From: Fibrobacterota bacterium | GTDB lineage: Bacteria > Fibrobacterota > Fibrobacteria > UBA11236 | DNA length: 64,000 nucleotides | Direction: 5' to 3' | NCBI GenBank assembly: GCA_947482115.1 | Contig: CANKII010000002.1 | Span: 62,001-126,000 of the forward strand | The notes under the pieces: generated by a model | Database searches by the model: none | What the model saw: the letters and a program-made list of their open reading frames with translations, nothing else | What the model was told of the DNA's origin: nothing | Shown: in pieces, positions 12,525-54,258 of the stretch | How positions within the stretch are numbered: the first letter of the stretch is position 1 | Layout: each line of letters starts with the position of its first letter | Program-made: the position numbers and the translations under genes

Positions 12525-13214
12525 ATGCAAGACCACAAAACCGAATTCATCCGCTTCATGCTTTCCTGCGGAGCCTTGAAGTTCGGAGACTTCACGACCA
12601 AAAGCGGACGCAAGACACCTTACTTCATCAACACCGGGGCCTATCAACGCGGGTCACAGATGGACAAGCTGGGCGGGTTTTATGCCCAAGCCCTGTATGC
12701 CACACATGGCAAAGAGGTGGACAATCTTTTCGGCCCGGCCTACAAGGGAATTCCACTGGCAGTTTCCACCGTCATGTCCCTGAACAAACTTTTCAACCTC
12801 GACATCAGCTATACCTTCAACCGCAAGGAAGCCAAGGATCATGGCGAAGGCGGGGCGTTGGTGGGATTCGATTACAAGGACTGGAATCCATCCGAGTCAT
12901 GTCGTGTGGTGCTCATCGAAGATGTGACCACCGCCGGTACTTCGGTGCGGGAATCCCTGCCGTTGATTCAAAAAGGCGGAAAGGCAAAGGCCATTGGTCT
13001 GGTTGTCTCCGTGGATCGCATGGAAAAAGGTTCCGGTGAGCGTTCGGCATTGCAGGAGATTCGCGAAGAGTTCGGAATCGCCACCACGGCCATCGCATCC
13101 TTCACGGACTTGGTCGCTTTTCTGGAAACGGATGAAGGCGGGGAATACCTCAGTCGTGATGCCGGATTGTTGTCACGGATGCGCGGGTATCGAGAACAAT
13201 ACGGGGCCATGTAG
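12525..13214 (+). CDS. pyrE: Orotate phosphoribosyltransferase
   Basis: Converts orotate and PRPP to OMP. The PRPP-binding motif is VVLIEDVTTAGTSV; GPAYKGIPLAV and YTFNRKEAKDHGEGG form the catalytic loop with its conserved Lys/His. The start is set at ATG 12525, with acagga about 8 bases upstream, instead of the TTG at 12504. The stop codon (TAG) falls in an atgtaggg sequence just before the palindromic repeat at 13221. The 3' end overlaps the repeat-altered GH5 gene on the other strand by 42 bases. Confidence 0.93.
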   Translation: MQDHKTEFIRFMLSCGALKFGDFTTKSGRKTPYFINTGAYQRGSQMDKLGGFYAQALYATHGKEVDNLFGPAYKGIPLAVSTVMSLNKLFNLDISYTFNRKEAKDHGEGGALVGFDYKDWNPSESCRVVLIEDVTTAGTSVRESLPLIQKGGKAKAIGLVVSVDRMEKGSGERSALQEIREEFGIATTAIASFTDLVAFLETDEGGEYLSRDAGLLSRMRGYREQYGAM

Positions 13215-14366
13215 GGCCGCATCGCGTAGGGGCAACCCGTGGTCCCTGAGCGTAGTCGAAGGGCCGGTTGCCCCTACGCGATCCCCACGCAAATCAAATA
13301 TTTCCAATCCCGGTGCAAGCCCTCGCGATGAAAATTTCCGAGGTGTAAATATCGCCGTTACCGCAGCATTCTTGGCCCGGATTTCATTTCTCACCCATGT
13401 GCCGGAACCGCTGATTTGAGCGGTGGTCCAGTTTCCGGAACCACTGGCTGCAGAAGTCAAAGCTGCCGAGGTTTCGGTGAGTCCCGCTACCGACCAGTTC
13501 ATCCAACTGATGCCGCGTTGATCCATGAAGTTAACCCATCTCCGCATTTCAGCCGTGTCGATGGTCCCATTGCCGCTCGACGAACTCAATCCGCCTTCCG
13601 TAACCATCAAAGGCAGCCCGTATTTAATAGCGGTATCCGCCTTGTCCCGGAGCGATTGCTTGTGAGTGGCTGCGTAAAAGTGCAAGGTGTAGATGATGTT
13701 GGTGCTGATGGTGATGGGGTTTTTGGAAGCCTCATCCACATCTTGATCCCAGCTTTTGGAACCGCAAAGAATGAGGTTGTTGGGATCGATGGCGCGTATC
13801 ACTGGAATGATGGCCTCGTGATAGGGCTTGATGACAGTGGCCCAAGGATGAGTATTCAAAGGCTCGTTCCACAATTCATAAATCACATTAGGGTAGGAGT
13901 GATAGGCGGTTGCCATCTTGGTGAAAAAGTCCTTGGATTCAGCAAGGTAGTCGTTGCCATTTGCGGTTTCGTGCCAGTCAATGACGACATACATGCCCAA
14001 TGCAATGGCGGCCTGAACCACTGAATCCACCTTGGCTTTTTCCACGGCGGGGCTGGCGATGTATCCCGCCGTTCCACCGAGCGGGCGCACACCCATCGAT
14101 GCACGTACGATATTGCAATGCCAGTCGTCCCGTATCCATTTCACTGTGGCGCCCGTATAATATTTCGATTGCGCGCTATTGCTCCAGTACAGTGCCATGC
14201 CGCGAAATTGCACGACTTGATTGTTCTTGTCGAGAATATGGGTGCCTTGAACATGGAGCTGGCCATGCAACTGCACTGCAGTTTGTGAATGAGTGAATGA
14301 AAAGGCGAGGAGGGAAATGGAAAGTGCGAGAGTTGCGGATCTTTTCAGGAATTTTTTTTCGGACAA
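13173..14366 (-). CDS. Secreted GH5 endoglucanase, C-terminus replaced by repeat-encoded sequence
   Basis: Start is taken as TTG at 14366, with gggagg upstream and a signal peptide after it; the frame's first ATG (14462) lies inside a perfect palindrome. The GH5 (cellulase A) barrel shows QFRGMALYWS, HCNIVRASMG, YVVIDWHET, acid/base Glu in YELWNEP, YTLHFYAA, nucleophile Glu in MVTEGG, and GISWMNWSVAG. The chain then enters a sorting-like domain that breaks after LEIFDLRG. From there the frame runs through the repeat at 13221-13282 and antisense to pyrE, ending at 13173. The enzyme probably is active but its sorting tail is lost. Confidence 0.82.
   Translation of the reverse strand: MSEKKFLKRSATLALSISLLAFSFTHSQTAVQLHGQLHVQGTHILDKNNQVVQFRGMALYWSNSAQSKYYTGATVKWIRDDWHCNIVRASMGVRPLGGTAGYIASPAVEKAKVDSVVQAAIALGMYVVIDWHETANGNDYLAESKDFFTKMATAYHSYPNVIYELWNEPLNTHPWATVIKPYHEAIIPVIRAIDPNNLILCGSKSWDQDVDEASKNPITISTNIIYTLHFYAATHKQSLRDKADTAIKYGLPLMVTEGGLSSSSGNGTIDTAEMRRWVNFMDQRGISWMNWSVAGLTETSAALTSAASGSGNWTTAQISGSGTWVRNEIRAKNAAVTAIFTPRKFSSRGLAPGLEIFDLRGDRVGATGPSTTLRDHGLPLRDAALHGPVLFSIPAHP
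13221..13282. repeat. 62-base composite palindromic (REP-like) repeat
   Basis: Outer 17-bp perfect stem, atcgcgtaggggcaacc (13221-13237) with ggttgcccctacgcgat (13266-13282), around the core ccctgagcgtagtcgaaggg (13244-13263). The same architecture and length recur at 53334-53395. It forms the end of the GH5 reading frame and follows the pyrE stop directly. Confidence 0.85.
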
Positions 14367-14441
14367 AGAAGCCTCCCATTCAAATCGATTGGGATCAATG
14401 TATGGTATTAGGGGTTGGGTCGCAACGTGTTTTTCGGGTCC

Positions 14442-14481
14442 GAACCTGTAGGGGCAACCCATGGGTTGCCCCTACAGGTTC
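14442..14481. repeat. Perfect 40-base palindrome upstream of the GH5 gene
   Basis: gaacctgtaggggcaaccca and its exact reverse complement with no loop. It shares taggggcaacc with the outer stem of the repeat at 13221. It lies between the GH5 start and the stop of the next upstream gene and may act as a terminator or as a mobile repeat unit. Confidence 0.85.
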
Positions 14482-15424: not shown

Positions 15425-15462
15425 GCCCGCCGGTTGCTGAGCGGAGTCGAAGCACGGCGGGC
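15425..15462. repeat. REP-like hairpin, variant core
   Basis: Stem gcccgccg (15425-15432) with cggcgggc (15455-15462) around the core ttgctgagcggagtcgaagc, a variant of the ccctgagc...gtcgaaggg core found elsewhere in the window. Confidence 0.75.
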
Positions 15463-51544: not shown

Positions 51545-51585
51545 GCCCATGTAGGGGCGTGATTGAATCGCGCCCCTACATGGGC
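51545..51585. repeat. 41-base palindromic repeat between arsC and tRNA-Leu
   Basis: gcccatgtaggggcg (51545-51559) with cgcccctacatgggc (51571-51585), loop tgattgaatcg. The gtagggg...cccctac part is common to the outer stems at 13221, 14442 and 53334. A decayed relative ends the adenosine-kinase-like gene at 60372. Confidence 0.8.
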
Positions 51586-53333: not shown

Positions 53334-53395
53334 GGCCTGTAGGGAAACGGCACGGTCCCTGAGCGTAGTCGAAGGGCGCCGTACCCCTACAGGCC
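53334..53395. repeat. 62-base composite palindromic (REP-like) repeat upstream of thyA
   Basis: Outer stem ggcctgtagggaaacggc with gccgtacccctacaggcc (two mismatches) around the core ccctgagcgtagtcgaaggg (53357-53376). Same length and core as the copy at 13221-13282. An inverted copy of the core lies inside thyA 360 bases downstream. Confidence 0.85.
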
Positions 53396-53421: not shown

Positions 53422-54258
53422 ATGCGACAATACCTGCAACTTCTTCAGGAAATTCTGGACAACGGGGAACGCAAGGAAGACCGCACCGGGACGGGTACGA
53501 TTTCCCTGTTCGGCATGCAGGCCAAATACGATTTGCGCGAGGGATTTCCCCTCGTCACCACTAAAAAAGTCCTTTTCGATGCGGTGTTGCGCGAGTTGTT
53601 GTGGTTTCTCCGCGGTAGCACCAACATCAACGATGATCTCGTCCAGCACACTCCAATTTGGAATGCTTGGGCCGATGCGAACGGCGAACTGGGCCCCATC
53701 TACGGATATCAATGGCGCAAATGGCCGCGATACATACGCGCCCTTCGACTACGCTCAGGGCACGAAGAATCAGGGTTATTCGAGCGTGAGCATGTCGATC
53801 AGATCACGCAAGCCTTAAATACGATCAAGAAAAATCCGGACTCGCGGCGCATCATTGTTTCAGCGTGGAATGTCGGAGATATTCCCGACATGAAGCTACC
53901 CCCCTGCCATGCTTTTTTTCAATACTATGTCTGCAACGGCCGTTTGGACATGCAGCTTTATCAACGCTCTGCGGACATGGCCTTGGGTGTGCCGTTCAAC
54001 ATCGCCAGTTATGCGTTGCTCCTGCAAATGACAGCGCAGGAATGCGGACTGATTCCCGGAATTTTTACGCATACTTTGGGCGATGCCCACATCTATCTCA
54101 ATCATGTGGACGGCATTCGCGAACAATTGAAACGCGAACCCAAGGATTTGCCACAAGTGCGCATTGCGGCCAAACCGTTTTTCGATTTGAAGTTCGAAGA
54201 CTTTGAGCTGACCGGTTATCAGCATCATCCTTTCATCAAATTCCCTGTGGCAGTATGA
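53422..54258 (+). CDS. thyA: Thymidylate synthase with a repeat-encoded loop insertion
   Basis: Converts dUMP to dTMP with methylene-tetrahydrofolate. 278 residues; motifs [14 protein letters not shown], catalytic Cys162 in [48 protein letters not shown]. Start ATG 53422. Between QWRKWP (97-102) and HVDQIT (124-129) there are 21 residues; most ThyA proteins have about six. The extra piece includes RALRLRSGH (106-114), encoded by an inverted copy of the REP-like core. The frame remains open and all active-site motifs are intact. Overlaps folA by 4 bases. Confidence 0.93.
53738..53761. repeat. REP-like core inserted in frame within thyA
   Basis: gcgcccttcgactacgctca then gggc: an inverted copy of the core in the element at 53334-53395, agreeing over 23-24 bases. 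It is read as codons 106-114 of thymidylate synthase. Confidence 0.85.

Follow-up and report, generated by a model that had tools for sequence, protein, structure and literature searches.

A small dispersed palindromic repeat lies in frame within thyA of a Fibrobacterota bacterium

Introduction

Cyanobacterial genomes contain small dispersed repeats (SDR) of 20-30 nt that are apparently mobile, without a known transposase. In-frame insertion of palindromic DNA is best known from Rickettsia, and the Rickettsia palindromic elements (RPEs) are about 150 bp long (PMC10969869). Outside that group, Di Nocera et al. 2013 (PMC3733652) place REPs of the GTAG and CGTC superfamilies inside genes of several non-Rickettsia bacteria; genes of DNA synthesis and repair feature prominently among them, and tRNA synthetase genes are also represented. 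For REPs linked to RAYT transposases, every transposase gene was reported to have a REP in its flanking non-coding DNA (PMC3116915).

A preliminary description of the window (the whole 64-kb stretch of DNA analysed here) read part of thyA as a REP-like palindrome inserted in frame. We find that this reading is right in substance, while the REP label and the claim of rarity need qualification. Our preferred explanation, to which we give a probability of about 0.87, is that this part of thyA represents a copy of a small dispersed repeat (24-60 bp) that is non-autonomous and forms hairpins. The repeat would have spread after the split from the closest sequenced sisters and entered thyA in frame, so that the enzyme gained some eight residues.

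Results

thyA is a single intact gene with a repeat-derived segment

The gene and its repeat copy are as follows.
53422 to 54258, plus strand: thyA, thymidylate synthase of 278 aa; single copy, intact; Pfam PF00303, NCBIfam NF002497.
53737 to 53763, plus strand: repeat-derived segment, codons 106-114 (RALRLRSGH), from codon comparison with sisters; net +24 bp relative to G002.
53738 to 53760, plus strand: 23-bp core copy GCGCCCTTCGACTACGCTCAGGG in thyA, the exact reverse complement of 53357-53379.

ThyA matches PF00303 across residues 2-278 (E=7.5e-114), scores above the NF002497 cut-off, and keeps the catalytic Cys162 and every invariant residue and motif, as first described. By family match, catalytic cysteine and invariant motifs, the protein is a thymidylate synthase. 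The gene is preceded by an intergenic palindrome and followed by folA, whose end it overlaps. It has one match only, itself, within its own genome (rated 99% complete); no second thyA was found there, and no thyX (PF02511) was detected in this genome or its sisters. Pairwise comparison with sister G002 gave dN 0.10 and dS 1.9. The resulting dN/dS of ~0.05 indicates that thyA is under purifying selection. With one intact copy, no thyX found and this low ratio, a pseudogene is very unlikely and was rejected as a candidate; the enzyme is probably active.

We compared ThyA at the codon level across 11 sequences, namely this genome and ten relatives from the genus, family and order. The closest relative, G002 (88% identical), is shorter by exactly eight codons at the repeat site: TAC ATA [CGC GCC CTT CGA CTA CGC TCA GGG CAC] GAA GAA in thyA here versus TAT GTG [GAG] GAA GAA in G002. 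The segment is also missing from G003 and from six same-family genomes, giving empty sites. Two findings had been named in advance as counting against insertion: the same loop in relatives that lack the repeat, or a second intact gene beside a decaying one. Neither was made, since the repeat is absent from ThyA of the sister genomes and no second thyA or thyX was found.

The loop had been described as about 15 residues longer than usual. Measured against the usual enzyme, as found in E. coli and in most relatives at class level, the excess is indeed ~14-16 residues, but only 8 of these are repeat-derived. A loop 7-9 residues longer than in the usual enzyme (WPKYVEDPETGRLRKEAVDQI type) is already present in every close sister, and the non-repeat half of the extra residues is ancestral in the family. 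Sister G001 has an equally long loop of unrelated sequence. Because the family loop is already extended and G001 reached the same length with other residues, the site was tolerant of insertions and deletions beforehand.

An AlphaFold model, the structural check suggested at the outset, retains the overall fold, with a mean pLDDT of 84.6 and a TM-score of 0.87 against the E. coli enzyme, and draws the extra residues as a low-confidence loop excursion. Residues 110-114 are the sole segment with pLDDT below 50, in the loop between strands 101-106 and 120-125. This low-confidence modelled loop suggests that the extra residues lie on the protein surface.

The core also lies in a longer element upstream of thyA

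The other palindromic features of the window are these.
53334 to 53395, no strand: full-length palindromic element between the upstream ORF and thyA; inverted repeat, fold -39.3 kcal/mol.
53357 to 53379, minus strand: core copy inside that intergenic element, forming an exact inverted pair with the thyA copy.
13221 to 13282, no strand: full-length element with GTAGGGGCAACC arms and the core in its tip; in frame, near the C-terminus of a GH5 cellulase gene.
14442 to 14481, no strand: perfect 40-bp palindrome, arms as in 13221-13282, core-free.
15437 to 15451, minus strand: further core copy TTCGACTCCGCTCAG.

The inverted core reported inside thyA is borne out by the exact 23-bp pair at 53357-53379 and 53738-53760. 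When up to three mismatches are allowed, the 20-mer occurs at three places in the window (dinucleotide shuffles, 0.00). The upstream copy had been called intact. Its core is indeed exact, but it forms the tip of the longer element 53334-53395, whose arms are of GTAG type (GGCCTGTAGGG/CCCTACAGGCC); thyA holds the core alone with a short stem, the long arms being missing. Its hairpin is imperfect (CGCGCCC...GGGCACG, stem 6-7 bp, -10.9 kcal/mol). G002 lacks the element at the same place upstream of its thyA. The core-free perfect palindrome at 14442-14481 shares its arms with a core-bearing element, and this suggests, without proving, a modular core placed in the hairpin tip.

Palindromes with GTAGGGGC arms that lack the TTCGAC core were seen in the window at 14442-14481 and 51545-51585; they are a second repeat family, possibly the parental one. 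The GH5 cellulase gene (13173-14462, minus strand) has its predicted ATG inside the first of them.

The repeat forms a family with a constant loop and variable stems

A genome-wide search for the exact 20-mer, as the preliminary description had advised, returned 10 copies versus 0 for the reversed control. TTCGACNNNGCTCAG gave 35 copies versus 0 for controls, and a relaxed search yielded 64 distinct hairpin copies in stretches read around individual copies. These 64 place a near-constant loop, YTTCGRCTHCGYTCA, on variable, covarying stems; the constancy of the loop is partly built into the relaxed search pattern, whereas the stems are not. The first five stem pairs form in 59, 58, 59, 39 and 42 of the 64 copies, each count exceeding the maximum of 500 partner shuffles. 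About ten inverted doublets occur, spaced ~40-75 bp.

Most copies lie outside conserved genes. Around a quarter have a sense-strand stop codon no more than a few bases away, and many follow it directly. The long-armed copies (53334-53395 and 13221-13282) have GTAG in their arms, and the thyA copy does not. The full element is ~60 bp and the net gains in genes are 24, 33 and 48 bp, short of the ~150 bp of an RPE. Core copies number 7 in G002 and 0 in both G001 and G003. An assembly or adapter artefact is ruled out by the variable stems and unique flanks of the 64 copies and by the occurrence of the repeat in named isolate genomes of other phyla.

At three loci (L013, L120 and L122), related cores, TTCGACAAGCTCA / TTCGACAGGCTCAG, stand beside some copies. 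The family is therefore wider than the pattern we searched. No Rfam family matches the repeat, and a search of a limited literature collection with the core in either orientation found no relevant paper.

Other core genes carry in-frame copies

We read six frames around all copies and named the genes by family searches. At least five genes of this genome besides thyA have in-frame copies: valS, a UDPGP-family pyrophosphorylase gene, coaX, lpxB and the gene for pyruvate dehydrogenase E2. In-frame insertion of a palindrome had been called unusual outside Rickettsia. That claim has to be qualified, since Di Nocera et al. 2013 (PMC3733652) already document such insertions. Nor is thyA alone in its own genome.

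The valS locus is as follows.
Locus L101, 3-2399, plus strand: valS, valyl-tRNA synthetase; in-frame inverted doublet, net +16 aa versus genus-level relatives.

In valS the relatives have some 8 codons where the new segment stands, and the events therefore do not all resemble clean insertions. The pyrophosphorylase (UDP-sugar) is longer by 11 aa than in four relatives. Thus thyA, valS and the pyrophosphorylase gene combine an in-frame insertion with empty sites in relatives. In coaX, a complete 60-bp palindrome encodes LVGATHPSTTLRDHGSPLQG at a loop of variable length, and the copies in lpxB and the E2 linker also fall where relatives vary. Further copies occur in a uup-like ABC-F gene (antisense), a pyrimidine 5'-nucleotidase-like gene and the end of the GH5 cellulase gene.

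The core is present in many phyla, with no link to Y1 transposases found

Across unrelated bacterial phyla, at least 118 stretches of species genomes contain the exact 20-mer CCCTTCGACTACGCTCAGGG, against a random expectation of ~0.5 in 257 Gb by simple calculation. Among the matches listed are Bacteroidota, Cyanobacteria, Chloroflexota, Acidobacteriota, Clostridia, Spirochaetes, several candidate phyla and others. Loci fetched from other phyla held 28 more relaxed copies versus 0 for controls. In viral contigs the 16-base core was found in 90 stretches, versus 5 for the reversed control. A BLAST search of the intergenic element against plasmids gave weak short matches only, one of them a 21-bp exact match to a Treponema plasmid. 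At the loci in other phyla (L236-L315), the bases following CCCTTCGACTACGCTCAGGG are often TGACA, CAGGC or CAAGC.

These data bear on whether the repeat is a classical REP or REPIN moved by a RAYT transposase since lost from the genome. The label fits in several respects: the 64 copies are short dispersed palindromes, mostly extragenic and often in inverted doublets ~40-75 bp apart, they are frequent just after stop codons, and GTAG occurs in the long arms, the thyA copy lacking it. Of 30 genomes from other phyla that contain the core, 29 have Y1_Tnp genes. However, no Y1_Tnp was found in this genome or six relatives (G000-G006). Of 70 Y1_Tnp loci in those other genomes, a single one has the core nearby, compared with the REP reported in the flanking non-coding DNA of each RAYT gene (PMC3116915). 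A RAYT gene flanked by the same REP was thus not seen, and mobilisation by RAYT is not supported; Y1 was the transposase searched for. We therefore keep the description of a dispersed repeat in an apparently functional gene, absent from sisters, and drop its status as a strict RAYT-linked REP, an origin we consider unlikely. As for MITEs, inverted arms are present and no target-site duplication was recognisable at the thyA, valS and pyrophosphorylase sites, with the transposase search again covering Y1 only.

Origin of the thyA copy

The thyA copy could instead have been templated locally, by an inverted template switch during replication that copied the intergenic core upstream of the gene rather than by an element jumping from elsewhere. 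Template switching is a live alternative for thyA because, among the 64 copies, the upstream copy alone shares its full 23 bp (including the GCG before CCC) and is inverted relative to it at a distance of 358 nt. On the other hand, only three pair-specific bases extend beyond the 20-mer, the long arms of the upstream copy were not carried into thyA, and no second core was seen in the 3-kb loci of the coaX and pyrophosphorylase copies. We regard local templating as rather improbable, and arrival by transposition-like spread as the probable route.

Selection for a hairpin that functions in the thyA mRNA, for example in stability or attenuation, would account for covarying stems under a constant loop and for the quarter of copies close to a sense-strand stop codon, and the thyA copy is itself in sense orientation. 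This explanation seems highly unlikely, given that the thyA stem is short and imperfect at -10.9 kcal/mol and that the repeat matches no Rfam family; the antisense copy in the uup-like gene argues against a strict sense rule. Ordinary loop variation with a coincidental repeat match, which the long loops of the sisters and of G001 might have suggested, is refuted by the 23-bp exact match to a dispersed repeat (20-mer expectation 0.00) and opposed by the same core lying in frame in other genes.

Under our preferred explanation of insertion by a dispersed repeat, a core copy with a short stem would have entered thyA at a surface loop already variable in length in the family. The reading frame would have survived because all sense frames of the core, and two of its three antisense frames, are free of stop codons and because the insertion added a net 24 bp; ThyA would have gained about eight residues. 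Insertions out of frame would presumably have been removed by selection.

Discussion

This kind of event is already known, because Di Nocera et al. 2013 list intragenic REPs in other bacteria (PMC3733652). The element family, its anatomy of constant loop and variable stems, and its target genes were not found described in the limited literature covered.

Several core genes of a non-Rickettsia bacterium have taken up a palindromic repeat in frame, with empty sites in its sisters. This makes it possible to test cleanly whether repeats of this type supply old enzymes with new peptide loops. How the 20-bp core spreads is also a testable question, since it occurs in many phyla without a visible transposase (Y1 searched). 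It is conceivable, if somewhat doubtful, that the core is a small, phylum-crossing mobile DNA that settles at hairpin tips, is moved by non-RAYT machinery and has extended loops of essential proteins time and again; it would then supply this lineage with in-frame peptide insertions, as RPEs do in Rickettsia.

Among known systems, the repeat may be likened to cyanobacterial SDR in being very small and having no known transposase. Like the REPs of Di Nocera et al. (PMC3733652), it consists of short palindromes, single or as inverted dimers, mostly just downstream of ORFs and sometimes in frame within genes. Unlike them it has a conserved loop on variable stems; no match to a described family was established, and thyA and coaX are absent from the intragenic examples in the section covered. 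With REPINs and RAYT-linked REPs (PMC3116915) it shares inverted doublets, non-autonomous spread and an extragenic bias, whereas its own genome has no RAYT that we found and, in other core-bearing genomes, the core is missing beside all but 1 of 70 Y1_Tnp loci. The RPEs are set apart by description, as the present repeats are 24-60 bp and mostly outside genes. Like RPEs, however, they have inserted in frame into many unrelated conserved genes, and the proteins are apparently still functional.
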